Counted from the first letter of the stretch, positions 2,896-25,818 are shown. The stretch: DNA of 64,000 nucleotides from Oscillospiraceae bacterium (GCA_017515345.1 JAFWFZ010000015.1:1-64000), one strand, 5' to 3'. Notes: a model not told the origin generated them from the sequence alone. Program-made: numbers and translations.

Positions 2896-3033
2896 TCCGT
2901 GCTCCTCCTTTTCTTTATTTACCTTTAAATGAGTTTTGCTCTCATTGCCCGTCGGGCAGCGCCGATTTGCCGCCGCAACGGTCCATACAGTTCCGCAGCG
3001 CATGGTGGGGTACGCCACGGCATTTTACATTTT

Positions 3034-3062
3034 ATTATCTTTAGGGCAAAAACGCAATGCAA
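3034..3062 (-). promoter_or_regulatory. Sigma-A promoter for the alpha1-Fe-S operon
   Basis: On the minus strand TTGCAT (3057-3062) and GATAAT (3034-3039) are separated by exactly 17 bases. The transcript would start near 3027, giving a leader of about 130 bases before the alpha1 start. Confidence 0.55.
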
Positions 3063-3189
3063 AACCGCACATTTTCGCAAGTTTATTTTAGAAAAAACCG
3101 CAGTCCATATGCAAAGTTTACAAAAGGCATGTTATATTTTGTTAAAGACCCAAAACGCAGGAAAACCTGCGCGCCGCATGTCTTTCCGG

Positions 3190-3220
3190 CACAAAGAAAA
3201 GGGGGCCGTTCGGCCCCCTT
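3190..3220 (-). terminator. Rho-independent terminator of alpha2
   Basis: A 10-bp stem AAGGGGGCCG / CGGCCCCCTT with a 2-base loop (3199-3220), followed on the minus strand by TTTTCTTT. It lies 63 bases past the alpha2 stop and separates alpha2 from alpha1. Confidence 0.85.
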
Positions 3221-3282
3221 AAACGCGGCGATTCACTACGCTATTCTTCACGATCCGGCAAAGCGCCTGCGGTCCGGGATCG

Positions 3283-6006
3283 TCAAAGCAGCCACCCCTC
3301 CAGGCAGACGCCGGCAGCGGGATCCAGCTTGCGGGCGAACGCCTCGGGGTAATCCCGCTTCCACTGTGCCATCTCCTCGTCTGTCACCTTCTCCACCTCC
3401 ACCAGGAAGCCGGAGGTCGCCATGCCGGAGCAGTTTTTGGAGATCTGGGAGGTGGGCGTGATCAGGTTGATGGCGCCGCCCCGGTCCAGCTCGCCGGGTA
3501 TGATGGGATCGCAGCGGGAGCCGTGGTCCACGGAACAGGCGCCGGGGATCAGCCGCTGGGACACGTAGGCGCCGCAGAGCACCGTGCCCCGCTCGTTGTA
3601 GACCTTCACGATATCGCCGTGGCGTATGCCGCGCTTCTCCGCCTCCACGGTGCTGATCCAGCAGGGCTCATACAGGTAGCCGTCCCTGCCCCGCACCTTC
3701 ATGGTGCCGATCTCCCGGTTCCAGACGATGTCGTCGCACTGGGAGTGCATCCTCCAACGGCCGTGATTTGACATGCACAGAAGCGGGTACTTTTTTGCCC
3801 GCTCGCCGCCTAGGCGCTCGTCGTGGCTCTCGCTCTTCTCGATCCAGTGGGCAACGGGGGGACGCTCAGGATCGTCGGGCATATACTTTTGTATTTCGGT
3901 GGAGAGGTACTCCAGCTTGCCCGTGGGGGTGGTCAGGGGATGCCCCTCCGGATCCTCATAGAACGTGCGGAGCCCGGGCGGGATGGAGGGCAGATCGTCC
4001 CGGATGGGGCAGACGAATATCCGCCGCTCGTTGAACTCCTCCCAGCTCATGTGCTCCTCTACGCCGGAGGCTTTGTAGAAGAGGCGGATGCGCTGATCCT
4101 CCGTGAGCCTGCCTGTGTAGGCGTCGTAGTAGTCGGGCCCCAGCTTCTCCGCCACCCTGGCACAGGCGTCGAAGTCGTTCAGGGACTCGCCCTGGGGCGG
4201 GCAGGCCGGCCATTCCCGGTAGATGGAGGTGAACACGCCGCTGATGCGGTCGTTGGAAATGTCCTGCATCTCGTGCTTGGAGGCAATGGGCAGGACGATA
4301 TCGGCGTAGTAGCAGTCGTTCTCCAGCCAGGGATGCTGGGCAACGATACACTCGATCTCCGGGCTCTGCATGGCCCTGGCAAACAGGTTGCCGTCGTTCC
4401 AGCAGGTCTGCTGGCAGGGGGCGTCGGTCCAGATCATATGGAGCCGGGACTGGCCGGGCCGGGGGAAGTGCATTTTCTGGAACTGGTACTTCGTGGTGGA
4501 TTTCCGGTTGCCGTTGGCGTCCGGGATCTGACTGGTGGAGAAGACCTGCATGCCGTACCACTCGATCTCCGGCTCCAGGATAGCCCGGTGGATCAGCGTC
4601 CTCGGGATGCACTGGGTGGGCGCAGGCCACGGCTTGAACAGCTCCTCAAGCTCCGGCGCTTTCCGCTTCTGCTCCTCCGAGAGCGCGAAGCGGCCGAAGA
4701 CGATCCCCTCCTCGGGGGCGGGCAGATCCTCGTCCACCGGGCGGAGAGCGTCGCAGATATGGGGCACGTTGGGGACGATCTTACTGGAGTAGGGGAGCTG
4801 GAAATTCGTGTTCCACAGGTGGAATTCCAGCATCTTCGCCTGCTGCACGCCGGGCTTGCCCAGGCCGCGCATACCCAGGAGCATAGCCTCCATCCTCGCG
4901 GGCTCGGAGGAGTAGGGGCCGCGGATATAGGACCCGCCGTTGCCGTGGACCAGGGAGGTTACCTTTTTCGCCCAGTCCCGCGCCAGGGCCTTGATGGTCC
5001 AAACGGGCACGGCGCATTTTTCACTGGCCCACTCCGGCGTTTTGGGCACGCCGTCCTCTTTTCCCATGACGTAATCCGCGAAGGCGTCGAAGCCGTAGGC
5101 GTGGGAGTCGATATACTCCTTCTCGTAGGTGCCCTCAGTGAGCCATATATAGGCGATGGCGAGCTGGAGGGCCACGTCCGTGTTCGGCAGGATGGGGATC
5201 CACTTGTCCCCATGGACGGCGGCGCCGTAGTTCAGATCGGGGCAGATGTAGATCTGGCGCATGCCGATGCTCGTCAGCCAGAAGAACAGCCGGCTCGTGA
5301 TGTTGATGCCGAAGCCCAGGGGCGTCGTCTCCGGATCGCAGCCCCAGCAGAGGATCTGATCGGCATTCGCCACGATATCGGGCCATATGTTCGCCATGGG
5401 CATCATCTCACCCACGGGCTCGCAGCCCCACACGTGCTTGGCGCCCCAGAACCAGCCCTCCCAGGAGTCCATGTTCCGGATCTGGATGGTGTAGCCTCCC
5501 AGGATGGACAGCAGCCGGTTCGGACAGCCGTGGCTGGGGGCGATGTTCTTGCCCTCGCCGTGCATGTCTGCCTGGCACAGGACGGCGGACATGCCGTATT
5601 TTTCCTTCACGCGCAGAAGCTCGTCCGCGATGAGCTGCGCAGCCTCATCCCAGGAGATGCGCACAAATTTGCTCTTGCCGCGGTTCTGGGGATTGCGCTC
5701 GCCCTTGGGGTCCCAGTCCACCCGCTTCAGGGGCCAGCGGACCCGGTTCGGGGAGTAGACCCGGCTCTTGTAGCCCACGCCGAAGGGCGTCAGCGTCACC
5801 TTCATGGGGGGGCGGAACGTCCGTCCCCTCCCGCTCATGGACCAGGGGTTGCAGTGCCTGTCAGTGTATTCGGTATCGTAGCAGTAGGGGCGCGTGCGGA
5901 TCATCCTGTCGCCGGTGGATTCCACGAGGCAGGGGCCGCCGCTCTCCGGCCCCATGAGGCCGAAGCATTTGAGTGTACTGCGATCGGGCTTGAATTTGCT
6001 GTTCAT
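3283..6006 (-). CDS. Transhydroxylase-like molybdopterin oxidoreductase, large subunit (alpha2), no Fe-S partner nearby
   Basis: 907 residues, same family as alpha1 and closely similar over its whole length to alpha3 (23095-25818), which is also 907 residues. No N-terminal Fe-S motif. Asp180-Ser181 (MDSWEGW) supply the expected molybdenum ligand and its neighbour, DMHGEGK the His, and Tyr406 (QLPYSS) aligns without gaps with the active-site Tyr of the neighbouring transhydroxylase. The C-terminus ends AFARKLDPAAGVCLEGWLL. Start chosen at the ATG with GGAGGAG four bases upstream. A terminator follows, so no downstream gene is co-transcribed, and no polyferredoxin gene is adjacent. It may use another gene's Fe-S subunit, or act without one (hydroxyl transfer needs no net electrons). 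Substrate unknown. Confidence 0.85.
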   Translation of the reverse strand: MNSKFKPDRSTLKCFGLMGPESGGPCLVESTGDRMIRTRPYCYDTEYTDRHCNPWSMSGRGRTFRPPMKVTLTPFGVGYKSRVYSPNRVRWPLKRVDWDPKGERNPQNRGKSKFVRISWDEAAQLIADELLRVKEKYGMSAVLCQADMHGEGKNIAPSHGCPNRLLSILGGYTIQIRNMDSWEGWFWGAKHVWGCEPVGEMMPMANIWPDIVANADQILCWGCDPETTPLGFGINITSRLFFWLTSIGMRQIYICPDLNYGAAVHGDKWIPILPNTDVALQLAIAYIWLTEGTYEKEYIDSHAYGFDAFADYVMGKEDGVPKTPEWASEKCAVPVWTIKALARDWAKKVTSLVHGNGGSYIRGPYSSEPARMEAMLLGMRGLGKPGVQQAKMLEFHLWNTNFQLPYSSKIVPNVPHICDALRPVDEDLPAPEEGIVFGRFALSEEQKRKAPELEELFKPWPAPTQCIPRTLIHRAILEPEIEWYGMQVFSTSQIPDANGNRKSTTKYQFQKMHFPRPGQSRLHMIWTDAPCQQTCWNDGNLFARAMQSPEIECIVAQHPWLENDCYYADIVLPIASKHEMQDISNDRISGVFTSIYREWPACPPQGESLNDFDACARVAEKLGPDYYDAYTGRLTEDQRIRLFYKASGVEEHMSWEEFNERRIFVCPIRDDLPSIPPGLRTFYEDPEGHPLTTPTGKLEYLSTEIQKYMPDDPERPPVAHWIEKSESHDERLGGERAKKYPLLCMSNHGRWRMHSQCDDIVWNREIGTMKVRGRDGYLYEPCWISTVEAEKRGIRHGDIVKVYNERGTVLCGAYVSQRLIPGACSVDHGSRCDPIIPGELDRGGAINLITPTSQISKNCSGMATSGFLVEVEKVTDEEMAQWKRDYPEAFARKLDPAAGVCLEGWLL

Positions 6007-6114
6007 TCCGCTCCTCCTCCGTTTGCGCCGCACAGCCGGACAGATCCCGCGTTTTCAGCCGGATTCATACGGACGGCGAAAGCAACTTCACATAGTATGA
6101 TCACTCTTTGCTTT

Positions 6115-6120
6115 ATTATA
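6115..6120 (-). promoter_or_regulatory. -10 element of the alpha2 promoter
   Basis: TATAAT on the minus strand, 109 bases upstream of the alpha2 start. No consensus -35 is found 16-19 bases upstream, which suggests an activator is needed. Confidence 0.45.
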
Positions 6121-6158
6121 ATACCTCCGGAGAACAAAGGGAAACGCACAAAAGTATC

Positions 6159-6186
6159 GCCGTAACAGCCAATCAGTTGTTACGGC
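6159..6186. promoter_or_regulatory. Inverted repeat, candidate operator
   Basis: Perfect 9-bp arms GCCGTAACA and TGTTACGGC with a 10-base spacer. It lies about 40 bases upstream of the alpha2 -10, where an activator such as a LysR-type protein would bind. No regulator gene is adjacent. Confidence 0.4.
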
Positions 6187-6271
6187 CGATTTGCCAGTTT
6201 GTCACGAAGGCAAACAGCGCCCCGCACGGCCCGGCAAAAGCGCTGTTTTTCATGAAAAATCGAAGGTTTGC

Positions 6272-6302
6272 TTGACATTGGAATAATTCCAAGGTTTATA
6301 AT
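6272..6302 (+). promoter_or_regulatory. athL promoter with MerR-type 19-bp spacer and palindromic operator
   Basis: TTGACA (6272-6277) and TATAAT (6297-6302) are separated by 19 bases, and the spacer holds the perfect palindrome TTGGAAT-A-ATTCCAA (6278-6292). An overlong spacer filled by a dyad is the hallmark of promoters activated by MerR-family proteins. An alternative -10, TTTATA at 6295-6300, would give a normal 17-base spacer, in which case the palindrome would be a repressor site. Confidence 0.65.
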
Positions 6303-6445
6303 TTAAAAACAGCATAGCGCCCTTTTTTCTGAGGTTTCCCCTATTCGCGGCGCAGATGCGAATTGAGATGCAGGAACAGCGTCAATCCGTCATATCCGTC
6401 AGCTTACAGGAGTCAAAAATATTTCACAGGAGGAGTGAAAAGGAA

Positions 6446-9013
6446 TTGGAAAAAGTATATGTCAACATGACGACAGGCGGCCCTATTTCCGTCTACGTCG
6501 AGGACGGTAAGATCACGCGTATCCGTCCTATCCAGATCCCCGCCGAGGATTATCCGGAGCCCTGGAAGATCACGGCGCAGGATGGCAAGACCTATCAGCC
6601 CCCCAAGGCCGTGAGAGTCTCCCAGACCATCATGACCGAGCGCAACAGACTCTATTCGGAAGACCGCATCCTCTACCCCATGAAGCGTGTCGACTGGGAC
6701 CCCAAGGGCGAGCGCAATCCCCAGAACCGCGGCAAGTCCGGTTATGAGCGCATCTCCTGGGACGAGGCTGCCACCATCATCGCAGACGAGATCAAGCGCA
6801 TCTCCCCCAAGCGCGAGGACGGCATGTATGACGGCCACGCCATCACCGCCATCACCGGCTCCCACCACAACTGGGGCATCGTCGGCTACAAGATGGCTCC
6901 CTTCGGCCGTTTCTTCGGCATGCTCAACTACACCCCCATCCTGGACAACCCCGACTCCTGGGAAGGCTGGATGTGGGGCGCCCCCCATATGTACGGCTTC
7001 TACTGGCGTCTCGGCCAGCCCGAGCAGTTCGACCTGCTTGAGGATGCCCTGAAGTACACCGACATGGTGGTGTTCTGGTCCAACGACCCCGACTCCACTC
7101 ACGGCATCTACTCCGGCCAGGAGTCCAACATCTGGCGTGTCTGGATCAAGGAGATGGGCATCAAGACCGTCTTCATCGATCCCTTCTACAACTACACCAA
7201 CGCCGTTATGGACGGCACCTGGTTCGCTCCCCGGCCCGGCACCGACACCGCTCTCGCGGCTGCCATCTGCTATCAGTGGTTCGTGGACGACACCTATGAC
7301 CACGACTTCGTGGAGCGGAAGACCATCGGCATCGAGGAATTCAAGGCCTATATCATGGGCGACGAGGACGGTATCCCCAAGACGCCCGAGTGGGCCGCCG
7401 AGAAGACCGGCCTCCAGGCCCGCCGCATCCGCGCCCTGGCCCGCGAGTGGGCCTCCAAGCGCGTCGCGCTGGGCGGCGGCGTCCGCGGCGGCGAGGGTTC
7501 TGCCTGCCGCGCTGCCTACGCCACCGAGATCGCCCGCTATATCATCGCTCTCCAGGCCATGCAGGGCCTGGGCAAGCCCGGCGTCTCCATCTGGGGCGCC
7601 TGCATGGGCGCGCCCTGCGACTTCACCTGGTTCCCCGGCTATGCCGAGCCTGACTCTCAGATGGGCAAGAGCCGCGCTGCCGAGCACAAGTTCGCGCTCA
7701 CGAACCCCACCCAGCAGCGTCTGTACCGCCTGACCTATCCCGAGGCGATCCCCGCCGGCCACGGCGAGTTCATCGGCGACGGCTTCTGCGGTCAGTCCAT
7801 CGAGCAGCAGTTCAACCATCACGAGTATCCCATCGAGGGCAAGATCAAGATGTTCTGGCGTTACGGCGGCGCCTTCATGGGCACCATGACCGACACCAAC
7901 CGCTACGCCGCCCTCTATCAGTACGCCGGTGAGAACGCCCTTGAGTGCGTCATCAACCAGGACTGCTGGTTCAGCGGCGAGACCAAGTTCGCTGACCTGA
8001 TCCTCCCCGCCTGCACCAACCTGGAGCGCAACGACCTGGGTGAGTTCTCCGTTTCCGGCGGCTACACCACCCACGCCTGCATCGGCAACAACTGGCGTAT
8101 CATCGTCCGCGAGCAGAAGGCCGTGGAGCCCCTGGGCGAGTCCAAGTCCGACTACGATATCTTCACCCTCGTGGCGGAGAAGCTGGGCCTCGGCGATGTG
8201 TACACCGAGGGCAAGGACGAGAACGACTGGGCGAGAGAGTACTGGAACCTCTCCGAGCTGTCTCAGCGCATGAGCTGGGAGGAGTTCGAGAAGAAGGGCT
8301 ACTACATCGTCCCCGTTCCCGAGAACTACGAGTCCCACCCCGCGTTCAGATGGTATTATGAGGACCGCGACTGCGACACCCAGGACTACCTGAACCCGAA
8401 GATCAAGGCCGCCAACAACATGAACACCCTGGAGCCCACCGAGCACTCCAAGGAGCTGGGCTCCTACTCCGGCAAGATCGAGTTCGCTTCCGAGTCCCTG
8501 AAGAAGCTCTCTCCCGACGATCAGGAGCGTCCCGCGGTGCCGAAGTACATTCCCTCCTGGGAGGGCCACGAGTCTGAGCTGTACGAGAAGTATCCGCTCC
8601 AGATGATCAGCCCCCACCCGCGTTTCTCCTTCCACACCCACTACGACAAGCACGCCAGCTGGCTGAACCAGGTGCCGGTGCACCGCGTCATGGTGAACGG
8701 CTACGCTTACTGGACCGTCCGCATCAATCCCAACGACGCTGTGGCCCGCGACATCCAGAACGGCGATCTGGTCGAGCTCTACAACGACCGCGGCAGCGTT
8801 ATCTGCGCGGCTGAGGTCACCTATCGCGTGCCCAAGGGTGTTGTGCACAGCTACGGCTGCTGCGCGAAATACGATCCTCTCACCAATGAGGTGGGCGCCA
8901 CGGACAAGGGCGGCTGCGTCAACCTGCTGACGAATGCCCGCTTCCTGTCCCAGAACGTGCCGGGCATGGCCCCGAACTCCTGCCTCATTGAGATCAGAAA
9001 GTGGGGTAACTAA
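6446..9013 (+). CDS. athL: Pyrogallol-phloroglucinol transhydroxylase, alpha (molybdopterin) subunit
   Basis: 855 residues. It transfers a hydroxyl between polyhydroxybenzenes, turning pyrogallol into phloroglucinol with 1,2,3,5-tetrahydroxybenzene as cosubstrate, using bis-MGD molybdenum in the cytoplasm. As in the Pelobacter acidigallici enzyme there is no Fe-S motif in this subunit. Residues recalled as catalytic there are all present at matching spacing: His140 (GSHHNWG), Asp170 and the Mo ligand Ser171 (NPDSWEGW), and Tyr399 (FPGY). The start is a TTG at 6446 with AGGAGGAG ten bases upstream; the in-frame ATG at 6467 and upstream ATGs lack a site. The beta gene follows after 2 bases. Arginine is written almost only CGC/CGT, as in the ribosomal genes nearby, so high expression is likely. 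Confidence 0.93.
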   Translation: MEKVYVNMTTGGPISVYVEDGKITRIRPIQIPAEDYPEPWKITAQDGKTYQPPKAVRVSQTIMTERNRLYSEDRILYPMKRVDWDPKGERNPQNRGKSGYERISWDEAATIIADEIKRISPKREDGMYDGHAITAITGSHHNWGIVGYKMAPFGRFFGMLNYTPILDNPDSWEGWMWGAPHMYGFYWRLGQPEQFDLLEDALKYTDMVVFWSNDPDSTHGIYSGQESNIWRVWIKEMGIKTVFIDPFYNYTNAVMDGTWFAPRPGTDTALAAAICYQWFVDDTYDHDFVERKTIGIEEFKAYIMGDEDGIPKTPEWAAEKTGLQARRIRALAREWASKRVALGGGVRGGEGSACRAAYATEIARYIIALQAMQGLGKPGVSIWGACMGAPCDFTWFPGYAEPDSQMGKSRAAEHKFALTNPTQQRLYRLTYPEAIPAGHGEFIGDGFCGQSIEQQFNHHEYPIEGKIKMFWRYGGAFMGTMTDTNRYAALYQYAGENALECVINQDCWFSGETKFADLILPACTNLERNDLGEFSVSGGYTTHACIGNNWRIIVREQKAVEPLGESKSDYDIFTLVAEKLGLGDVYTEGKDENDWAREYWNLSELSQRMSWEEFEKKGYYIVPVPENYESHPAFRWYYEDRDCDTQDYLNPKIKAANNMNTLEPTEHSKELGSYSGKIEFASESLKKLSPDDQERPAVPKYIPSWEGHESELYEKYPLQMISPHPRFSFHTHYDKHASWLNQVPVHRVMVNGYAYWTVRINPNDAVARDIQNGDLVELYNDRGSVICAAEVTYRVPKGVVHSYGCCAKYDPLTNEVGATDKGGCVNLLTNARFLSQNVPGMAPNSCLIEIRKWGN

Positions 9014-9015
9014 TT

Positions 9016-9855
9016 ATGGCAAGATACGGTTTTGTATTTAATGTTGAACGCTGCAATGGCTGTTTCTCCTGCTTCCTCGCCTGCAAGGACGAGCACACCG
9101 GCAACTGCCATTGCCCCACCTGCGCCGCCACCACCGAGTGCATCAATCTGAAGCGCATCGACGAGGTGCAGTACGGCTCAGATGACAAGGTCAAGGTCGA
9201 CTACATGCACTATGTGTGCCAGCAGTGCGCCGACCCTGCCTGCATGAAGAAATTCCCGAACGAGATCTACAAGAGGGACGACGGCATCGTCATCATCGAT
9301 CCCGAGAAGGCCAAGGGCAAGAAGGAGATCGTGGACGCCTGCCCCTACAACGCCATCGTGTGGAATCCCGAGGCTCAGCTCCCCCAGAAGTGCACCATGT
9401 GCGCCCACATGCTGGACGCCGGCGAGACCGTCACCCGCTGCTCCGAGGTCTGCCCCAACGCCGCGCTTCTGTTCGGCGATCTGGACGATCCCAACAGCGA
9501 GATCAGCAAGTACGTGGCCGAGCATAAGGACGAGCTGGAGAAGCTGCATCCCGAGTTCGGCACCGGTCCTGCTCACTGGTACCGCCACATCCCGAAGCCC
9601 TTCATCTGCGGCGAGGTCGTCTGCAAGGACACCGACGAGTGCTGCAAGGGCGCTAAGGTGACCCTCACCTGCGACGAGTGCGGCACCGCCAGGACTACGG
9701 AGACCGACTTCCTGGGCGACTTCGAGTTCCGCGGCCTGCCCACCAACAAGCCCTTCACCGTGAAGATCGAGGCTGACGGCTACAAGCCCTGCGAGCTCAA
9801 GGCCCGCACCAAGGCTTCCGTCAATCTCGGTGAGATCTTCATCGAGAAGGCGTAA
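9016..9855 (+). CDS. bthL: Pyrogallol-phloroglucinol transhydroxylase, beta (iron-sulfur) subunit
   Basis: 279 residues, partner of athL and only 2 bases downstream. The N-terminal two thirds is a polyferredoxin: CNGCFSCFLAC near residue 13, CQQCADPAC near 70, a CPYNA segment, then CTMCAHM and CSEVCPNA, enough cysteines for three [4Fe-4S] clusters. The last 80 or so residues (from about VTLTCDECG) form a beta-sandwich of the carboxypeptidase-regulatory/Cna-B type (FLGDFEFRGLP, IEADGYKP). A polyferredoxin followed by such a domain is the known plan of the Pelobacter beta subunit (274 residues). The clusters are thought to hold or transmit electrons although the net reaction is redox neutral. 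Confidence 0.93.
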   Translation: MARYGFVFNVERCNGCFSCFLACKDEHTGNCHCPTCAATTECINLKRIDEVQYGSDDKVKVDYMHYVCQQCADPACMKKFPNEIYKRDDGIVIIDPEKAKGKKEIVDACPYNAIVWNPEAQLPQKCTMCAHMLDAGETVTRCSEVCPNAALLFGDLDDPNSEISKYVAEHKDELEKLHPEFGTGPAHWYRHIPKPFICGEVVCKDTDECCKGAKVTLTCDECGTARTTETDFLGDFEFRGLPTNKPFTVKIEADGYKPCELKARTKASVNLGEIFIEKA

Positions 9856-12144: not shown

Positions 12145-12663
12145 TCATTCCCTTCGCAGCACGCAGCAGTTCACGTTCCTCGTCCCCACGGGCCACTGTA
12201 CACCCTCCAGGGTGTGGTGGTATGTGAAGCCGCATTTCTCCGCCACGCGCTTCGATTTTTCGTTCGCGTCAAAATACCCGTACCAGACCGCTTTGCAGCC
12301 CAGCTCGCCGAAGCAGCGCCGGATCAGCGCCCGGATCGCCTCCGGTATGTATCCCCGGCCCCAGAACGGCTTCCCGATCCAGCAGCCCAGCTCCGCCTCA
12401 TCCTCCGGCAGGCCCATGGCGCTGGCAGCGCCGACCATGATCCCCACGCTGCCCACGGGCTCCGCCGTCTCCTTCAGGACCACGGCATAGGTCTCCGGCA
12501 GGGAGAAGACGGTCCGGATGATCATAAGGCTGTGCGCCGCGTCCGGGTGCGCCTCCCGGCCCGCCGAAGGGCCCACGTCCGGGTCCCGGGCATAGCGGAA
12601 GCAAGCGTCCGCGTCCTCATCGCGCCACGGCCGCAGCAGCAGGCGTTCCGTCTCGATGACCAT
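12145..12663 (-). CDS. GNAT-family N-acetyltransferase (RimJ/RimL type)
   Basis: 172 residues. Begins IETERLLLRPWRDEDA, the typical opening of the RimJ/RimL group that acetylates protein N-termini or small amines with acetyl-CoA. The acetyl-CoA pocket is at GKPFWGRGYIPEA (about residues 98-110) and the C-terminal NEKSKRVAEKCGF motif is present. Its ATG overlaps the TGA of the upstream aldo/keto reductase (TGATG), so the two are translationally coupled. The acceptor cannot be told from sequence. Confidence 0.85.
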   Translation of the reverse strand: MVIETERLLLRPWRDEDADACFRYARDPDVGPSAGREAHPDAAHSLMIIRTVFSLPETYAVVLKETAEPVGSVGIMVGAASAMGLPEDEAELGCWIGKPFWGRGYIPEAIRALIRRCFGELGCKAVWYGYFDANEKSKRVAEKCGFTYHHTLEGVQWPVGTRNVNCCVLRRE

Positions 12664-13691
12664 CAGGAAACGCTCACTTCTCCCGCGAGGATGCGCTTAT
12701 AATCCTCATAGTTCTTCTTCAGCAGCGCGGGCGTATCCAGACCGTAGGGACACCGGGCAGCGCACTGGCCGCAGTTGAGGCAGTCCTCGATCTTCTTCAT
12801 CTTGGCCTGGGACTCCGGGGTAAGCTGCATGGCCGAGGGCGCACGGCGGATCAGCAGCGACATACGGGCGCAGGTGAAGATCTCGATCCCCTGGGGACAG
12901 GGCAGGCAGTAGCCGCAGCCCCGGCAGAAATCGCCGCCCAGCTCCGCCCGGTCCTTCTCGATCACAGCCCGGAGCTCGTCGGTCATGGCGGGCGGTTCGT
13001 CGATGCAGGCGAGGAAGTCCTTCAACTCGCTCTCCCGCTGGACGCCCCAGATGGGCACCACGTTGTCGAACTGCGCGGCGAAGGCATAGGCGGCGGCAGC
13101 GTTGGTGATGAGCCCGCCGGAGAGGGACTTCATGGCGATAAATCCCATATTTGCCCTCCTGCACGCCTCCACCAGCTCCAGCTCCTTCTCCCCGGAGATG
13201 TAGCTGAATGGGAACTGCAGCGTTTCATACAGTCCGGACTCGATGGCTTCGCCGGCCACGGCCAGCCGATGATTTGTGATGCCTATGTGCCGGATCTTTC
13301 CCTGGCGTTTCGCCTCCAGCGCGGCGTCGTACAGGCCGCTCTCATCCCCGGGCTTTGGGACGAAGGGCGGGTTGTGGAACTGGTAAATGTCAATGTGATC
13401 GGTGCGCAGATTCCTGAGGGACGTTTCCAGATCCCGCCAGAACCCCTCCGCATTCGGGGCGCCGGTTTTGGTGGCAATCACGACCTTGTCCCGGATGCCG
13501 TCGAACGCTTCTCCCAGCTTTTCCTCGCTGTCCGTATACCCGCGGGCCGTGTCGTAAAAATCGACCCCGGCCTCATAGGCCATGCGCAGAAGGCGCACCG
13601 CTTCCTCCCGAGAGATCCGCTGGATCGGCAGCGCCCCGAATCCGTTTTTGCTGACGCACAGCCCCGTGCTTCCCAGTATGATCCTGTCCAT
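12663..13691 (-). CDS. Aldo/keto reductase with C-terminal 2[4Fe-4S] ferredoxin domain
   Basis: 342 residues. Residues 1-250 are an AKR barrel (LGSTGLCVSKNGFG opening, YDTARGY with the catalytic Tyr region, KTGAP, GITNH). The last 80 residues hold two cluster motifs, CRGCGYCLPCP and CLNCGQCAARCP. Such fusions are frequent in clostridia and are thought to couple carbonyl or alkene chemistry to ferredoxin, but few have known substrates. Three ATGs are close together; the third (13691) has AAGGAG seven bases upstream and was chosen. Coupled to the acetyltransferase gene. Lies next to the transhydroxylase operon, so a part in aromatic or ketone reduction is possible but unproven. Confidence 0.85.
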   Translation of the reverse strand: MDRIILGSTGLCVSKNGFGALPIQRISREEAVRLLRMAYEAGVDFYDTARGYTDSEEKLGEAFDGIRDKVVIATKTGAPNAEGFWRDLETSLRNLRTDHIDIYQFHNPPFVPKPGDESGLYDAALEAKRQGKIRHIGITNHRLAVAGEAIESGLYETLQFPFSYISGEKELELVEACRRANMGFIAMKSLSGGLITNAAAAYAFAAQFDNVVPIWGVQRESELKDFLACIDEPPAMTDELRAVIEKDRAELGGDFCRGCGYCLPCPQGIEIFTCARMSLLIRRAPSAMQLTPESQAKMKKIEDCLNCGQCAARCPYGLDTPALLKKNYEDYKRILAGEVSVS

Positions 13692-13877
13692 ATCCATTCT
13701 CCTTTTCATTTGCCTTCTGCTTGCGTTTTCTTCAATTACTACGTGTTTTTAGCGCCGATCGCCTGTTTTTGTGATTTGAAAATTAAAAATCGAAACCGAG
13801 CCTGAGCGAGATATTTAAAGATAATCGACGAAAATCGAAGCATGAAAAGTATAAGATCATTTTTTTGATTTTTGGTG

Positions 13878-16556: not shown

Positions 16557-17693
16557 TTATTCCGCCGGCTCCCCGTTCTTCACGAGATCGGTGACCTGCC
16601 TCATCAGGCTGCTGATCTCCAGGTGCTGCGGGCAGTTGCGCTCGCAGGCGCCGCAGCCGATGCAGTCCTCCGCCTGTCCGCCCTCGCCGGAAAGCATAAA
16701 GTAGATATGCTGGAGGGGGTCAATGTTTTTGTAGATCAGATAGTTGTTGAGGATGCCGATATATCCGGGGATCATGATGTTCTTGGGGCAGTTGGGGAAA
16801 CAGTAGCCGCAGCGGGTGCAGGGGATGGACGGCGTATTGTTCAGGATATCGACAGCCTTGTCGATGAGCGCGTGCTCCTCCTTGGACAGGGGCTTGAAGT
16901 TCTGGAAGGTCTTGATGTTGTCCTCCAGCTCGGTCATGTTGCCCATGCCGGAGAGTACGGTGAGCAGCCCGTCCAGCTCCAGCACATAGCGGAACGCCCA
17001 GGAGGCCACAGAGGCGTCTGGGTTCGCTTTTTTCAGCATCATGCCCGCCTCGCTCTTCTCGCCGGCCAGCCAGCCGCCCTTGTTCGGCTCCATGATGGAG
17101 ACGAGCTTATCATATTTCCGCGCGATCTCATACAGCCTGCGGGACTGGACCTTGGGATTATCCCAGTCCAGATAGTTGATCTGGAGCTGCACGAATTCGA
17201 CCTCCGGGTGGTGGGCCAGGATCTCCTCCAGATCCTCCGGGGTGCTGTGGAAGGAGAAGCCGATGTGGCGGGCGATCCCGTCCGCCTTGAGCTTCTGCAG
17301 ATAGCCCCAGGCGTCGAAATCGTTGGCCTTTTTGATGGTTTCCTTGGTCAGGCCGTGGATCAGGTAGAAGTCCACATAGTCCGTGCAGAGGCGCTTCAGG
17401 GACGTCTCGATCTGGATGGGCATCTCCTCCGCGCTCTTGACGTTCGCCAGATTCATCTTTGTGGCGATGTTGAAGCTCTCCCTGGGGTGGCGCTTCACAA
17501 GGCACTCGCCCAGAACGTCCTCAGAGCCCTGATAGATATACGCCGTGTCAAAATAGGAGTAACCGCTCTCCAGGTACCGGTCGATCATCTTGTTGATAGT
17601 CTCGATGTCGATCTTGCCGTCCTCCGTCTTGGGAAGCCTCATGTTCCCGTAACCGAGCTTGCCGATGTGTTCGTCAATGATTCTTTCAGCCAT
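16557..17693 (-). CDS. Aldo/keto reductase with C-terminal 2[4Fe-4S] ferredoxin domain
   Basis: 378 residues. AKR barrel in residues 1-270 (KLGYGNMRLPK, YFDTAYIYQGSED with the catalytic Tyr, ATKMNL, GFSFHS) and two full C-x2-C-x2-C-x3-CP motifs, CTRCGYCFPNCP and CIGCGACERNCP, in the last 100. Last gene of a minus-strand operon behind the AprA-like flavoprotein and AprB-like ferredoxin. Of two adjacent ATGs the second (17693) has the better spacing to GAGAGAGG. The ferredoxin domains suggest direct electron exchange with its operon partners. Substrate unknown. Confidence 0.88.
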   Translation of the reverse strand: MAERIIDEHIGKLGYGNMRLPKTEDGKIDIETINKMIDRYLESGYSYFDTAYIYQGSEDVLGECLVKRHPRESFNIATKMNLANVKSAEEMPIQIETSLKRLCTDYVDFYLIHGLTKETIKKANDFDAWGYLQKLKADGIARHIGFSFHSTPEDLEEILAHHPEVEFVQLQINYLDWDNPKVQSRRLYEIARKYDKLVSIMEPNKGGWLAGEKSEAGMMLKKANPDASVASWAFRYVLELDGLLTVLSGMGNMTELEDNIKTFQNFKPLSKEEHALIDKAVDILNNTPSIPCTRCGYCFPNCPKNIMIPGYIGILNNYLIYKNIDPLQHIYFMLSGEGGQAEDCIGCGACERNCPQHLEISSLMRQVTDLVKNGEPAE

Positions 17694-17756
17694 TTTCATA
17701 CCTCTCTCTTTCGTGATTTATAGAGCATGCCGGCGATCCGGCCTGCGTGTTTTGAC

Positions 17757-18098
17757 TTATCTGTTGCCGGAGGGGGGCTTGGTGTTGGGCGGAAGCGGGT
17801 TTTTCATACCGACGCGGAACTCCTCGCCGGTCGCCTTCCGCTTCCAGACGGTGGAGACGCGCTGCTTCGCCGGGGTCACCAGGGTGAGCGCGCCGAAGGG
17901 GCACTCCTCCACGCAGCCGCCGCAGAACCAGCACTCCTCTGTGAAGAGGACGATGGGCTCCCTGCCCGGCTTCGGGTTGGGAATCATCACGTCGCAGGGA
18001 CAGACGTTGACGCATTTGTTGCAGCCGACGCACTTTTCCGCGTCAAAGGAAAGGATCCGGCTCGGCCCGTTGGGGTTGGGGATGGAATAAGCGTTCAT
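17757..18098 (-). CDS. AprB-like ferredoxin, electron-transfer subunit of the adjacent flavoprotein
   Basis: 113 residues with two cluster motifs, CVGCNKCVNVCP (near residue 25) and CWFCGGCVEECP (near 60), followed by a short beta-rich tail (STVWKRKATGEEFRVGMKNP) like that of the beta subunit of adenylylsulfate reductase, and a basic Pro/Asn-rich end. The gene begins 23 bases after the flavoprotein stop. The start at 18098 has AGGAG nine bases away; an ATG at 18104 is an alternative. It probably forms a heterodimer with the flavoprotein. No sulfate-reduction genes (sat, dsr) are present, so a true APS reductase is unlikely. Confidence 0.85.
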   Translation of the reverse strand: MNAYSIPNPNGPSRILSFDAEKCVGCNKCVNVCPCDVMIPNPKPGREPIVLFTEECWFCGGCVEECPFGALTLVTPAKQRVSTVWKRKATGEEFRVGMKNPLPPNTKPPSGNR

Positions 18099-18121
18099 GT
18101 TCATCGTCTCCTTTCCGCCGC

Positions 18122-20119
18122 TTAATCGAGCTCCGCATATTTCCGGTAGTTTTCCTCCAAAACCGGGGAATAGGGCTCCTGCAGGTAGTAATCGCAGGGC
18201 ACCTTGCGGGACTGGACCTCGCCGTCCTTCTGGCAGACGGCCACGAAGCAGTGCCACTCCTCCGGGCTGTCCGGATAATCGTTGCGGAAGAAGCCCAGCA
18301 CGGGGCAGCTCGCCTTGCGGGCCTTGGCGGCCTGCATATACGCGATACCCAGCTCCGCCAGGGACAGGCTCTCAATGGCTCGGGCCAGCTCGTGGGGGTT
18401 GGAGGCGTACATCCGCTCCCCCTCCGTTTCCATCAGGTCCTTCATCCGACGGATGCCCATATCCAGCGTGTACTCTGTCTTATAGTCGCCGCAGTAGTCC
18501 TGCATCAGCCGCGCCACGGCGGCGTTCATCTCCTTCCAGCTCACGTCGCCGCCCCGCTGGACGGGGCCCAGGACCCGTGCCTTCTCCTTCGCGATCTGCT
18601 CCGGATCCGGCTCCACCGCCTCATGCTTCAGGGCGAACACGGCGGCCTGCCGGCCGGCGTAGCGCCCGGCGGTGTGGGATTCCCCGTGGCAGCCCTGGCT
18701 TGGCAGGGGCCCGCAGCCTGCCGCGAAGAGCCCGGGAAGGGAGGTCATCAGCCTCCAGTCGGTCAGGAACCCGCCGCCGCCCATTTTCCACTTGGCAGGG
18801 GTCTGCCCGGCGCCGGCCCAGGAGGAGTCGATGAGTCCCTGGGGGCCGTAATCCGCGACGGGATACTGGAGCATGTCCTGATCGGGATCATAGCCCCAGG
18901 CGGTCAGCGTCTTGTAGACGGGAACGCGGCACTTGCCCTCGTTCGACAGCATCATGCCGAAGATCAGCCGGCGGGACTGCTCGCTGAGAAGGGTGAAATC
19001 CGTGTAGAAGGGTTGCTCATACTCCCCGCTGCGGAGCTTTTCTCCCAGCTTCGGATCGGTGACCGTGATCTTGTACTTGGGCATCTGCCCGTGGTCCAGC
19101 GCGATGCCGTGCCCGATGACGAAGGACCCCTCCTCACTGGGCATAAAGATGTCTTTTTCGTCATATACCAACTCGCCGAAGGCGGTGGCGTAGTGGACCT
19201 CCTTGCCGTTTTTGTCCACGGTGGGCGCGCCCTGATAGGTGTTGTTGTTGTTCCCGGTGCTGTAGGGAGCGTAGCCCATGCCGGAGAGCCGATGGGGCAC
19301 CACCTGCTCCATCATGATGAGCTCCGCGCCTGCCCGCCAGCCGATGGTGTGGCCCATGGCCGTCTGGTTGATGTTGCACATGGATTGGCTCTCTGTATAT
19401 TCAGGGGCAAAGCTCCAGAGCCGGACGGTGCGCCCCGAGCTGACAACGACGGCCCTGGCCTTGAAGATGTAGAACAGGCCAGTCCTGTCGCTGACGCCGG
19501 TGGCTCCGATGACGCGGGCCCCCTGCCTTCCTCCCTCGGTGAGCAGGGAGGTGATGCAGACCCGGTCGTACACGTCGGCGCCCAAGCGGCGCATCTCCTT
19601 ATCCACGGCCGGCTTGATGTTGTAGCCGTAGATCCTCAGGCAGTGCTTGTTCTCCAAATCGTAGGCGAACATCAGCTTCGTCTCGTCATCCCGGAAGATG
19701 CTGCCCTTGAATTCGTCATCCTCGTCCCGGATCTGCACGCCCATCTGCTCCACCTCAAGCAGGGTGTCATACCCCTCCTTGCCGATGATATAGCGGGCCA
19801 GGCCGTTGGTGTAGCCCTGGGTCGTCTCCATGGCGGCCTCGGAGTACCGCTCAGGGGTGATCTTGGAGCAGGGATTCGTCACAGCGCCATGCCAGTGGTC
19901 CACTCCTGCGCCGCCCTCGCCGCTCCTTTTTGAAAAGCCGCGGTCCGCAACGGCAACGGTGGCGCCCCGCTTGAGCGCGGCGATGGCCGCCCGGCAGCCG
20001 GCGACGCCGCCGCCGATGACCAGCACGTCAGATTCGATGACCTTCTCGTTTCCGTATTCCAGCGGGTATGGCCACGCCGGGATCTCGCCTGTCTCCGCCA
20101 CATACTCGTGCCAATTCAT
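18122..20119 (-). CDS. AprA/FrdA-type FAD-dependent reductase, catalytic subunit
   Basis: 665 residues of the fumarate reductase/succinate dehydrogenase/APS reductase flavoprotein group. The FAD dinucleotide motif GGGVAG lies at about residues 36-41, RDD and KHCLRIYG in the capping region, and the C-terminal FAD-contact segment LPGLFAAGCGPLPSQGCHGESHTAGR at about 475-500 (only part shown as motif: GLFAAGCG). A helical C-terminal domain follows, as in AprA. It has no signal peptide, so it is cytoplasmic. First gene of the operon with the ferredoxin and AKR genes, divergent from the SLC13 transporter. The likely role is ferredoxin-linked reduction (or oxidation) of an unsaturated or oxo substrate from the aromatic pathway; this is inference. 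Confidence 0.85.
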   Translation of the reverse strand: MNWHEYVAETGEIPAWPYPLEYGNEKVIESDVLVIGGGVAGCRAAIAALKRGATVAVADRGFSKRSGEGGAGVDHWHGAVTNPCSKITPERYSEAAMETTQGYTNGLARYIIGKEGYDTLLEVEQMGVQIRDEDDEFKGSIFRDDETKLMFAYDLENKHCLRIYGYNIKPAVDKEMRRLGADVYDRVCITSLLTEGGRQGARVIGATGVSDRTGLFYIFKARAVVVSSGRTVRLWSFAPEYTESQSMCNINQTAMGHTIGWRAGAELIMMEQVVPHRLSGMGYAPYSTGNNNNTYQGAPTVDKNGKEVHYATAFGELVYDEKDIFMPSEEGSFVIGHGIALDHGQMPKYKITVTDPKLGEKLRSGEYEQPFYTDFTLLSEQSRRLIFGMMLSNEGKCRVPVYKTLTAWGYDPDQDMLQYPVADYGPQGLIDSSWAGAGQTPAKWKMGGGGFLTDWRLMTSLPGLFAAGCGPLPSQGCHGESHTAGRYAGRQAAVFALKHEAVEPDPEQIAKEKARVLGPVQRGGDVSWKEMNAAVARLMQDYCGDYKTEYTLDMGIRRMKDLMETEGERMYASNPHELARAIESLSLAELGIAYMQAAKARKASCPVLGFFRNDYPDSPEEWHCFVAVCQKDGEVQSRKVPCDYYLQEPYSPVLEENYRKYAELD

Positions 20120-20466: not shown

Positions 20467-20690
20467 AATTATTTTACATATATGATTTATGGCAAATCAC
20501 AGCGGCTATAAAATATCTAAAATGACAACAATTTTGTTTGATTTGTGGCAAAATAACGATTCTGTCAGAATATCAATAGAAATATCAGTGCAAAAAGTAT
20601 ATGATGTTGAATGCAGGATGGCGAACTGCCCCCGGAAGCAAAGCAAGCATCGCCGCATGATACAGATCACTGCAAAGAGGAGGAGTAAAA

Positions 20691-22121
20691 ATGGCAACAA
20701 AAGTATCAAATCCCGGCGGGAAATCCGACAACAGCTTCAAAAAGCGTATCCTCGGATTCATCCTCGCCGCCGTCATCATCGCGTTTTTCACTATCTGCCC
20801 GCCCTTTGAGGGGCTGTCGGAGGAGGCGATGGCCTCCATCGGCATTTTCATCGGAGCCATCATCCTGTTCGTGCTGCAGGTGGCCCCCCTGGCCATCAGC
20901 TGTCTCACCCTCATGATGCTGCTGCCCTACTTCAAAATCACCGATCTGCCCACTATCTACAACCAGTTCGGCGGCACCTCGTTCTTCTTCGTGCTGTTCT
21001 GCTTCGGCGTCACGGGCGCCCTGTCGCAGACCACCATGCCCCTGCGCATCAGCGCAGCCATCACGAAAGTCTCCAAGGGCAACCCCAAGGTGATCGTATA
21101 CGGCTTCAACTTTGCCGCCTGCATCATCTCCGGCTTCCTGTCGAACTTCGGCACCCTGATCATGTTCTACGGCATCATCCTCATGTTCCTGACCCTCTCC
21201 GGCCGCAAGCCCGGCGAATCCGGCCTGGGGCGCTGCCTGATGATCGGTCTGCCCATGGCCTGCGGCACCGGCGGCTTCATCTCCCCCGCGGGCTCTCCCG
21301 GCAACCTGATCGCTCAGTCCCTGTTGGGAGCTGAGGGCATCAACATCACGTTCCTCAACTGGTTCCTCATGTGCACGCCCTTCGCCCTGCTGGCCGTGTT
21401 CTTCATGAGCTTCATGCTCATTCGGCTGTTCAAGCCGGAACCGCTGCCCCAGGAGGCGGCGGACGCCGTGAAAGACAAGCGCGATGAGCTTGGCCCCTGG
21501 GACAGGAAGGAAAAGCTCGCCATGATCATCATCGGCGTCACCATCATCCTCTGGTTCGTCAGCACCTGGGTCCCCATTCTGAACACCACCGTCATTGCCG
21601 GCCTGGCCTGCTTCCTCATGTTCATGCCCGGCATCGACCTGATGAACTGGAAGACTCTGGTCAAGGAGGCCGACTGGAATCTGCTGTTCATGGTGGGTTC
21701 CGTGGCCATCACCATGGGCTGCGTCAATTCCACCGGCGCCATGGGCTGGATCATGAACAAGCTCTTCTCCGGCGTGGGCGCGCTCTCCCCCTTCGTCCTC
21801 TTCCTGATCATCGGCGTGGTGGTCTGCTACCTGCGTGTGCTCATCCCCACCGCCCCCTCCGTGTCCGCCATCTTCGTGCCGGTCATGATCGGCATCGCGG
21901 CCGTCGCCGGCGGCCATACCACGGCCCTGAGCCTGATCCCCGTGTTCTGGTCCGGCGCCACGATGACCCTGCTGTACACCGAGCCCATTTACCTCTACAC
22001 CCACGGCTCCGGATACTACTCCGCGGGCGACCTGTTTAAGGCGGGCCTGCTGCCCACGATCCTGCTCATCGTGATCATGGCTGCCGTGTTCCCCGGCTGG
22101 GTCGGCCTGTTCGGCTATTGA
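20691..22121 (+). CDS. SLC13/DASS-family anion transporter
   Basis: 476 residues with about 11-12 hydrophobic segments and a hydrophilic central loop near residues 245-270. The repeated helix-break regions PAGSPGNLIAQS and the late PTAPSVSAIFVP resemble the SNT and TAP signature loops of divalent anion/sodium symporters, which carry dicarboxylates, sulfate or related anions across the cytoplasmic membrane. The start is behind AGAGGAGGAG. The position, divergent from the flavoprotein operon and upstream of alpha3, suggests uptake of an aromatic or aliphatic acid for this island; the actual substrate is unknown. Confidence 0.85.
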   Translation: MATKVSNPGGKSDNSFKKRILGFILAAVIIAFFTICPPFEGLSEEAMASIGIFIGAIILFVLQVAPLAISCLTLMMLLPYFKITDLPTIYNQFGGTSFFFVLFCFGVTGALSQTTMPLRISAAITKVSKGNPKVIVYGFNFAACIISGFLSNFGTLIMFYGIILMFLTLSGRKPGESGLGRCLMIGLPMACGTGGFISPAGSPGNLIAQSLLGAEGINITFLNWFLMCTPFALLAVFFMSFMLIRLFKPEPLPQEAADAVKDKRDELGPWDRKEKLAMIIIGVTIILWFVSTWVPILNTTVIAGLACFLMFMPGIDLMNWKTLVKEADWNLLFMVGSVAITMGCVNSTGAMGWIMNKLFSGVGALSPFVLFLIIGVVVCYLRVLIPTAPSVSAIFVPVMIGIAAVAGGHTTALSLIPVFWSGATMTLLYTEPIYLYTHGSGYYSAGDLFKAGLLPTILLIVIMAAVFPGWVGLFGY

Positions 22122-23094: not shown

Positions 23095-25818
23095 GTGGAG
23101 AACAACTTCCTGCCCGACAAAAAGTGTCTTGTCAGCTTTAGCCTCATGGGGCCGGAGAGCGGCGGGCTCTGCCAGGTGGAGTCAAAGAACGACCGGATGG
23201 TGCGCATCCGTCCGTACCACTATGAGAGGGACACATTTCAAAACAGCAATCCCTGGGAGATCCGCGCCCGCGGGCGGACGTTCCGCGCGCCGGAGCGCGT
23301 GACCATCACGCCGCTCGGCCTGGGTTACCGGTCCAGGGTCTATTCCAAAAACCGCGTCCTCTACCCGCTGAAGCGGGTGGACTGGGACCCCCATGGGGAA
23401 CGCAATCCCCAGAACCGGGGCAAGAGCAAATATGTCCGCATCTCCTGGGACGAGGCCGCCCAAATCGTGGCGGTCGAGCTGAAGCGCCAGAAAGAGAAAT
23501 ACGGGCCGGAGGCGGTGCTCTGCCAGGCGGACATGCACGGCGAGGGAAAAAATGTCGCCCCCAGCCACGGCTGCCCCAACCGGCTCCTCTCCCTCATGGG
23601 GGGCTATACGCTGCAAATGCGGAATATGGACTCCTGGGAGGGGTGGTTCTGGGGCGCGAAGTACGTCTGGGGCTGTGAGCCCGTGGGGGAGATGGCGCCG
23701 CAGACGAACCTGTACCCGGATATTGCGAAAAACGCCGATCTGCTCCTGTTCTGGGGCTGCGATCCGGAAACTACGCCGCTGGGCGTCGTCAGCCACATGC
23801 CCTCCCGGCTATGCTCCTGGCTCACGGAGATCGGCCTGAAGTCCGTCTACGTGTGCCCGGATCTGAACTACGGCGCGGCGATCCACGGGGACAAGTGGAT
23901 CCCCGTGCTGCCCAACACGGATGTGGCGCTCCAGCTCGCCATTGCCTACCTCTGGATCACAGAGGGCACTTACGACAGGGATTATATCGCCACCCACGCC
24001 TACGGCTTCGACAAGTTTGAGGAGTACGTGCTTGGCCGGGAGGACGGGGAGCCCAAGACGCCGGAGTGGGCCAGCGAAAAATGCGGCGTGCCCGTCTGGA
24101 CGATCAAGGCGCTGGCGCGGGACTGGGCAAACAAGGCGGCATCCATCATCCATGGCAACGGCGGCTGCTATATCCGCGGCCCTTACTCCTCCGAGCCCGC
24201 CCGGCTGGAGGTGATGCTGCTGGGGATGCGCGGCCTGGGCAAGCCCGGCGTCCACCAGGCGAAGATGATCGAGTGGAACCTTTGGAACAAGGATTACCCC
24301 GTACCGTATCAGGGGCAGTTCGTCCCCAAGATCACCGCCATTGCGGACGCGCTGCGCCCTGTGGACGGGGACGTGGAGCCTCACATCAACATCGCCGGCC
24401 GGTTCCAGCTCAATCCCGCTCAGAAAGAGCGGGCGCCGGAGCTGATCCCCCTGTTCCAGCAGCTTCCCGCTCCGCTGCAGTTTATTCCCCGCTGCTGCAT
24501 CCACAAGGCGATCCTGGACGGCCACGCGGAGTGGCGCGGGCTTCAGTGCTTCTCCTCCTCCCAGCAGCCGGTGGGCGACAACTACCGCTATCCCACCCAG
24601 CAGTACCAGTTCAGGGAAATGCAGTATCCCCGGCCCGGACTCAGCCGGGTCCACATGATCTGGACCGACGCCCCCTGCCAGGTGACCTGCTGGAACGACG
24701 GGAACCTGACGGCCAGGGCGTATCAGGATGAGAGCATCGAGTGCATCGTGGCCCAGCATCCGTGGCTGGAGAACGACTGCTATTACGCCGATATCATCTT
24801 CCCCGTGGTGACGAAGCATGAGATGAACGACCTGGGCAACAACATGTCCTCCGGCGAGTTCACCTCCATCTACCTGGAGGAGCCCTGCTGCCCGCCCCAG
24901 GGGGAGAGCGTCTCCGATTTCGACGTCTGCGCGAGGGTGGCGGAGAAGCTGGGGCCTGAGTATCTGGCGGCGTATACCGGGAATCTCTCGGAGGCGGAGC
25001 GGGTGCGCTTCTTCTACAAGGCCACCGGCTGCGAGGATTATATGACCTGGGAGGAATTCCGGGAGAAGAAGATCTTCGTGGTCCCCTGCAAGGAGCAGGA
25101 GGTGCACGAAAATCTCCCCGCCGGGCTGTACGGCTTCTGGCGGGACCCGGAGGCGAACCCCCTGTCCACCCCAACGGGCAAGCTGGAATTCTACTCCACG
25201 GAGATCGCGAAATACACGCCCGATGACCCGGAACGGCCGCCCGTGCCCCACTGGATCGAGAAGGGCGTGAGCCACGACGAACGGCTGAGCAGCGAGCGGG
25301 CGGAGAAGTACCCGCTCCTGTGCATGTCGAACCACGGCCGCTGGCGGATGCACGCCCAATGCGACGACATCGTCTGGAACCGGGAGGTGGAGACCATGAA
25401 GATCCGGGGAAATGACGGTTACCAGTATGAGCCCGTCTGGCTCCATCCCTCCGAGGCGGAAAAGCGCGGCATCAAGCACGGCGATATCGTGAAGGTCTTC
25501 AACGAGCGGGGCGTGGTGCTCTGCGGCGCCTATGTCACCGAGCGGCTGATGCCCCGCACCTGTTACGTGGACCATGGCGCCCGCCTCGATCCCATCATTC
25601 CCGGCTGGCTGGACCGGGGCGGCGACATCAACACCATCACCCCCACGTCCACCACCTCCAAAAACGCCACCGGCATGGCCGTTTCCGGCTTCCTGGCGCA
25701 GGTGGAGAAGGTCACGGACGAGGAGATGGCGCAGTGGAAGCGGGACTATCCCGAGGCGTTCGCCCGGAAGCTGGATCCCGCCTGCGGCGTCTGCCTGGAG
25801 GGTTGGCTCGCCGACTGA
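23095..25818 (+). CDS. Transhydroxylase-like molybdopterin oxidoreductase, large subunit (alpha3), no Fe-S partner nearby
   Basis: 907 residues, near twin of alpha2. No N-terminal Fe-S motif; Asp179-Ser180 (MDSWEGW) give the likely molybdenum ligand, DMHGEGK the His, and Tyr405 (PVPYQG) aligns with the transhydroxylase active-site Tyr. The tail AFARKLDPACGVCLEGWL is shared. The start is a GTG with AAGGAGGG six bases upstream; the ATG at 23069 is in another frame. It has its own promoter and ends at a convergent terminator, so it is monocistronic with no polyferredoxin gene on either side. Codon use is less biased (CGG, CCG frequent) than in athL. Activity unknown; a catechol or pyrogallol dehydroxylase or transhydroxylase is the best guess from family. 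Confidence 0.85.
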   Translation: MENNFLPDKKCLVSFSLMGPESGGLCQVESKNDRMVRIRPYHYERDTFQNSNPWEIRARGRTFRAPERVTITPLGLGYRSRVYSKNRVLYPLKRVDWDPHGERNPQNRGKSKYVRISWDEAAQIVAVELKRQKEKYGPEAVLCQADMHGEGKNVAPSHGCPNRLLSLMGGYTLQMRNMDSWEGWFWGAKYVWGCEPVGEMAPQTNLYPDIAKNADLLLFWGCDPETTPLGVVSHMPSRLCSWLTEIGLKSVYVCPDLNYGAAIHGDKWIPVLPNTDVALQLAIAYLWITEGTYDRDYIATHAYGFDKFEEYVLGREDGEPKTPEWASEKCGVPVWTIKALARDWANKAASIIHGNGGCYIRGPYSSEPARLEVMLLGMRGLGKPGVHQAKMIEWNLWNKDYPVPYQGQFVPKITAIADALRPVDGDVEPHINIAGRFQLNPAQKERAPELIPLFQQLPAPLQFIPRCCIHKAILDGHAEWRGLQCFSSSQQPVGDNYRYPTQQYQFREMQYPRPGLSRVHMIWTDAPCQVTCWNDGNLTARAYQDESIECIVAQHPWLENDCYYADIIFPVVTKHEMNDLGNNMSSGEFTSIYLEEPCCPPQGESVSDFDVCARVAEKLGPEYLAAYTGNLSEAERVRFFYKATGCEDYMTWEEFREKKIFVVPCKEQEVHENLPAGLYGFWRDPEANPLSTPTGKLEFYSTEIAKYTPDDPERPPVPHWIEKGVSHDERLSSERAEKYPLLCMSNHGRWRMHAQCDDIVWNREVETMKIRGNDGYQYEPVWLHPSEAEKRGIKHGDIVKVFNERGVVLCGAYVTERLMPRTCYVDHGARLDPIIPGWLDRGGDINTITPTSTTSKNATGMAVSGFLAQVEKVTDEEMAQWKRDYPEAFARKLDPACGVCLEGWLAD

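Follow-up and report, generated by a model that had tools for sequence, protein, structure and literature searches.

Three open reading frames, all on the minus strand, occupy positions 16557–20119 of the 64,000-nucleotide stretch of Oscillospiraceae DNA analysed here (the window) and form one operon, as the initial annotation had proposed. The first gene (A, 18122..20119) encodes a 665-aa FAD subunit resembling AprA and the alpha subunit of PAPS reductase, an assignment drawn from Pfam, PDB profile matches and an AF2 model. The second (B, 17757..18104) encodes a 115-aa 2[4Fe-4S] subunit, recognised by its Fer4 matches and by alignment, and the third (16557..17699) encodes a 380-aa aldo/keto reductase (AKR) with a C-terminal 2[4Fe-4S] dicluster domain (Pfam Aldo_ket_red plus Fer4_9/Fer4_17). 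Because the E-values are tiny, these family matches are not chance matches. B could start at the ATG at 18098 or 18104, and AKR at that at 17693 or 17699; the inner ATGs have the better Shine–Dalgarno spacing, shorten B to 113 aa, and yield intergenic gaps of 23 and 63 bases, the very values annotated before. The gene set is closed, again as annotated, by a single intrinsic terminator (16526–16495, minus strand), which consists of a GC-rich hairpin with a 14-bp stem (10 GC pairs) and a T-rich run. Upstream, a candidate sigma-70-like promoter (20468..20495, minus strand) is proposed from its agreement with the consensus at 10 of 12 positions. A gene for a DASS-family sodium:anion symporter (20691..22121, plus strand; Pfam Na_sulph_symp, with NCBIfam dass just under its cut-off) is divergent to the operon and could be its substrate importer, and cysK lies about 1 kb past the terminator. 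A search of a viral collection returned no relatives.

Subunit A combines the Pfam domains FAD_binding_2 and Succ_DH_flav_C, and its best PDB profile matches are 8a8o (alpha subunit of MtPAPSR, from Methanothermococcus thermolithotrophicus) and 1jnr (AprA). The AF2 model of A, built from 36 sequences (pLDDT 89, pTM 0.92), found MtPAPSR alpha as its best structural match by both Foldseek and VIA, with Z 42 over 511 residues; Z was 36 against AprA and 36–39 against fumarate reductases and succinate dehydrogenases (FrdA/SdhA), scores that fail to separate AprA from FrdA/SdhA as matches of the model. The curated models for AprA, FrdA and SdhA all scored A far below their cut-offs, with 91.1 against 641.75 for TIGR02061 (AprA), 165.7 against 587 for PRK08275, the best of the FrdA/SdhA models, and 69.8 against 567.3 for sdhA_frdA. 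Across 36 relatives, Asp74-His75-Trp76, Tyr372, Asp374, Arg383, Glu394, His478 and Arg486 never vary and, judged by this conservation, are candidate active-site or FAD residues. The conserved motifs GAGVDHW and CHGE are peculiar to A, the latter lying near the flavin and being clade-specific.

Subunit B contains two Fer4 motifs (Pfam), which correspond to its two Cys motifs, and among PDB subunits of similar size it is closest to 8a8o_C, the beta subunit of MtPAPSR. Its score against TIGR02060 (AprB) is below the cut-off (29.4 against 135.65). The C-terminal tail is highly conserved in the alignment (WKRKxTGE-F-R-G), which we take to be reminiscent of the AprB tail. In 50 of 53 B proteins, the first Cys of motif 2 is immediately followed by a Trp (Trp59 of B). 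Counted by offsets, Trp59 would align with MtPAPSR beta Trp42, a proposed electron relay (PMC10322725), and with the analogous Trp48 of AprB (PMC2211403). The AprAB-like architecture described earlier for the flavoprotein and its 2[4Fe-4S] partner is therefore borne out by domains, PDB profiles and the AF2 model (Z 42/36) alike. MtPAPSR and the AB pair share a fumarate-reductase-family FAD alpha subunit with a small 2[4Fe-4S] beta subunit and, apparently, the relay Trp, MtPAPSR being the best match in both profile and structure; with AprAB (PDB 1jnr, 2fja, 3gyx), AB shares the fold, the subunit plan and the cluster-to-FAD architecture.

This likeness raises the reading that AB is an assimilatory-type APS/PAPS reductase, supplied with sulfate by the neighbouring DASS transporter. 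PAPS and APS reductases are its closest solved homologs, and both the divergent transporter and the nearby cysK would suit such a role. However, of the four residues that contact APS in A. fulgidus, Asn74, Trp234, Arg265 and His398 (PMC2211403), the first two are not conserved: the position of Asn74 is His77 in A (column H28 L5 Q2 N1) and that of Trp234 is Met247 (column M24 F9 H2 W1), while the equivalent of Arg265 falls in a variable stretch that aligns poorly and the His398 region likewise resists secure alignment. PAPS reductase, unlike AB, keeps the catalytic residues (PMC10322725). Moreover, the window genome (81.6% complete) gave zero matches to ATP sulfurylase (PF01747), to PAPS_reduct of the CysD/CysH type (PF01507) and to APS kinase (PF01583), for all of which the control genomes were positive, and held no true DsrA above the cut-off, only a weak sulfite-reductase-like match (64.7 vs 392.85 bits). 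At this completeness each lone absence is soft; combined, they are convincing, and the earlier statement that AB occurs away from sulfate-reduction genes extends to the genome. AB also departs from MtPAPSR in its identity of only about 20–23%, its differing aligned FAD/substrate residues, an A subunit about 95 aa longer with conserved motifs of its own, and the lack of sulfate-activation genes; from AprAB it departs in its curated scores far under the cut-offs and the lack of sat or dsr. We therefore rejected AB as an APS or PAPS reductase on its residues and the missing sulfate-activation genes, and regard that function as highly improbable; the initial annotation had likewise kept AB apart from APS reductase and had named the APS-binding residues as a point to check. 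With key residues and partner genes missing, AB probably reduces an organic compound. AprA-like proteins without AprA-typical residues have been described in Diaforarchaea that have no sulfate activation, as a divergent paralogous family (PMC7174415); A resembles these paralogs in such general traits, and the general phenomenon is to that extent already known.

An organic substrate could also be an ordinary dicarboxylate, such as fumarate or one of its methylated or aryl analogues, reduced by a fumarate-reductase-type enzyme. The same fold family, the Z of 36–39 to FrdA/SdhA, a dicarboxylate-type transporter adjoining the operon and the invariance of His478 and Arg383 all speak for such an enzyme. 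Nevertheless, the scores of A against the NCBIfam FrdA/SdhA models are far under cut-off, and the segment of A aligned with the substrate Arg of FrdA, presumably Arg390 (FrdA numbering), reads CHGE or variants and has no Arg, although the exact column is unsure. We judge a dicarboxylate reductase to be rather unlikely.

The pair of A and B, rather than the three genes, is the conserved unit. A GTDB genome search gave 69 loci, which come from Oscillospiraceae of a termite-gut type (isolate names point to this host), rumen and other Clostridiales, Chloroflexota, Acidobacteriota, Actinomycetota, Pseudomonadota, deltaproteobacterial MAGs, Spirochaetota and one archaeon; the source of the window is itself a gut bacterium, probably from a termite. 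A ferredoxin adjoins A in 64 of 81 relatives: the two-cluster ferredoxin lies downstream in 52 and upstream in 12, three further contigs end there, and 14 have none within 700 bases of A by a strict motif. The ferredoxin-linked relatives of A span Bacillota, Chloroflexota, Acidobacteriota, Pseudomonadota, Actinomycetota and an archaeon, and the A protein of the window belongs to a fully supported 11-row clade in the tree. Beyond the operon, the window genome contains three A genes, of which two are paired with an intact B. One of the three is part of a further AB pair on contig C3; the 5-kb contig C49 carries the other two, one followed by an intact B and the other at the edge, with no room for B. 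No characterised member of the AB clade was found in the papers searched.

The third gene is, as annotated before, an AKR with two clusters of its own. It combines Aldo_ket_red (Pfam, 153.6 bits) with a C-terminal Fer4 dicluster, and its tetrad Asp51, Tyr56, Lys81 and His115 is intact and invariant in the aligned paralogs and relatives; in the structure model, pLDDT is below 50 over 290–363, the cluster domain, so the placement of the clusters is unreadable. A TIM barrel with the tetrad and a C-terminal two-cluster domain is shared with other ferredoxin-fused aldo/keto reductases, which we take to be of the COG1453 type, but the window copy adjoins AB whereas its nearest relatives mostly do not. 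A second ferredoxin-fused AKR lies in the window at 12663–13709, beside a GNAT gene, and is 28% identical to the operon AKR. For an AprAB–AKR system or an iron–sulfur AKR, nothing relevant appeared in the literature searched, which covered few subscription journals.

The initial annotation had treated A, B and AKR as one set and suggested a survey of its conservation. The AKR adjoins AB in only 3 of about 79 loci, namely the window, L047 and L050 (the last two from related MAGs, with the order A-B-AKR-SDR), and from two AKR clades, so that a conserved three-gene set was rejected and AB alone is conserved. At L051 an AKR is near AB but divergent. In another genus, locus L146 (1–5778) has an AKR in an AB-type cluster, together with a contig-edge B of another AB clade, two URO-D-like genes and OppB/OppC; the contig begins at this point and would hide any adjacent A. 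The AKR tree places the window copy with those of genomes G110, G081 and G028 and the L047/L050 copies with other paralogs, each grouping well supported; AKR has therefore joined AB at least twice. Of 150 same-family genomes, 38 encode close AKR homologs (E at most 1e-100), mostly without AB nearby. Each of the six sampled genomes that carry a close A also has a close AKR, against 32 of the 144 others (Fisher p=0.0002, uncorrected for relatedness).

How AKR relates to AB can be read in several ways. Gene order and spacing, the clusters in both B and AKR, the recruitment of AKR beside AB twice independently and the co-occurrence with A in six of six genomes could all reflect a dedicated three-protein complex, in which AKR would hand electrons from NAD(P)H through its clusters to B. 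Against it, most AB pairs have no adjoining AKR and most close AKRs no adjoining AB, no AKR can be seen beside the three other A genes of the window genome (two sit on a short contig that soon ends), and the same genome has AKR paralogs without AB. To our knowledge AKRs also carry no flavin, leaving no obvious cofactor that would split a hydride into single electrons, and we hold such a complex to be unlikely. That AKR is an unrelated gene, co-transcribed by happenstance, would accord with the numerous AKR-Fd paralogs (about 3–15 candidates per genome in the window's family of genomes) and the sporadic A-B-AKR layout, but sits poorly with two independent same-strand adjacencies plus L146, given a rough binomial chance of 0.002–0.04 for at least two adjacency events; we give this reading slightly more weight than the complex, still as a minor one. 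We read AKR instead as a functional link to AB that is recurrent and not obligatory.

Four AthL-like molybdenum large subunits (transhydroxylase/catechol-dehydroxylase-like) lie around the operon at 67–9855 and 23095–25818, one of them paired with a BthL-like partner that bears a CarboxypepD_reg domain, and the window also holds two thiolases and one SDR, a gene content that would suit the breakdown of phenols, for instance along the phloroglucinol route (PMC10470551). The window genome also has two cyclase-family genes. AthL-like enzymes were found in 8 of 10 AB-bearing genomes against 40 of 140 others (Fisher p=0.002, uncorrected for phylogeny), and AB and AthL share a contig in two genomes only, the window genome and G015. 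The association with transhydroxylases that had been suggested thus stands as an enriched co-occurrence, whereas a fixed AB–transhydroxylase link was rejected. Likewise, of the earlier proposal of an electron-transfer reductase for an aromatic intermediate, the soluble reductase is probably correct and the aromatic part is correlative only; aromatic catabolism is a plausible role for AB. Contig L009 opens with a BthL-like C-terminal domain (2–337) and carries another AB pair, with A at 5584.

Elsewhere the neighbours of AB include URO-D-like proteins, oligopeptide-type ABC transporters, glycyl radical enzymes, uronate isomerase, mannonate dehydratase and, by sequence inspection, AOR-like proteins. 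They differ widely across relatives and hence indicate no one pathway, and AB clades may differ in substrate, as may be read from the clade-specific CHGE motif. At locus L046 (1–9734) the order OYE-A-B-UROD continues with uronate isomerase, two oxidoreductase-like genes and mannonate dehydratase, which suggests a sugar-acid link in that genome. Glycyl radical enzymes lie near AB pairs at L045 (3154–5595), L050 (7490–9973) and L035, those of L045 and L050 being far under the cut-offs of every named GRE family. At L036 (3527–8605), L037 and L040 (1201–6268), AprAB-like genes are followed by NuoF-like and HndD/[FeFe]-hydrogenase-like genes, whose H-cluster motifs look degenerate. AB, NuoF and the HndD-like protein could here form an NADH-fed reductase complex, and it is the NuoF partner that most clearly hints at NADH as a possible source of electrons for AB.

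Taken together, the reading we favour, at a probability of roughly 0.5, is that AB reduces an organic substrate with electrons from ferredoxin or NADH and is tied in some lineages to the chemistry of an AKR. The two subunits would form a soluble heteromeric reductase on the plan of APS/PAPS reductase, in which electrons would enter the two [4Fe-4S] clusters of B and travel via Trp59 to the FAD of A. Once reduced, this FAD would in turn reduce a small organic molecule bound in the pocket that lies between the FAD domain and the capping domain. For the substrate, predicted to be neither APS nor PAPS, the likeliest candidate is an unsaturated or oxo-acid intermediate in the catabolism of plant-derived material, aromatic or sugar-acid. 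Electrons would probably come from reduced ferredoxin, or from NADH by way of a partner, since NuoF-like genes follow AB in related genomes. AKR is predicted to be a separate NAD(P)H-type enzyme, placed beside AB in some lineages, which could either act on the pathway of AB or swap electrons with B through its own clusters.

More broadly, and as a tentative extension, AB may represent a widespread class of soluble enzymes, similar to APS reductase, that act in many anaerobes as reductases of organic compounds, dearomatised phenolics being one possibility, with ferredoxin, a NuoF/HndD-like unit or an iron–sulfur AKR as interchangeable inputs. AprA-like genes serve as markers of sulfate reduction in metagenomes, and the AB family, of which gut and sediment anaerobes have several copies and which in the one genome checked is unaccompanied by sulfate-activation genes, would yield false positives. 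Its recurring partners are direct leads to the electron donor and the substrate. If AB reduces organic substrates, it would constitute a class of reductases that has been overlooked in the anaerobic turnover of carbon.
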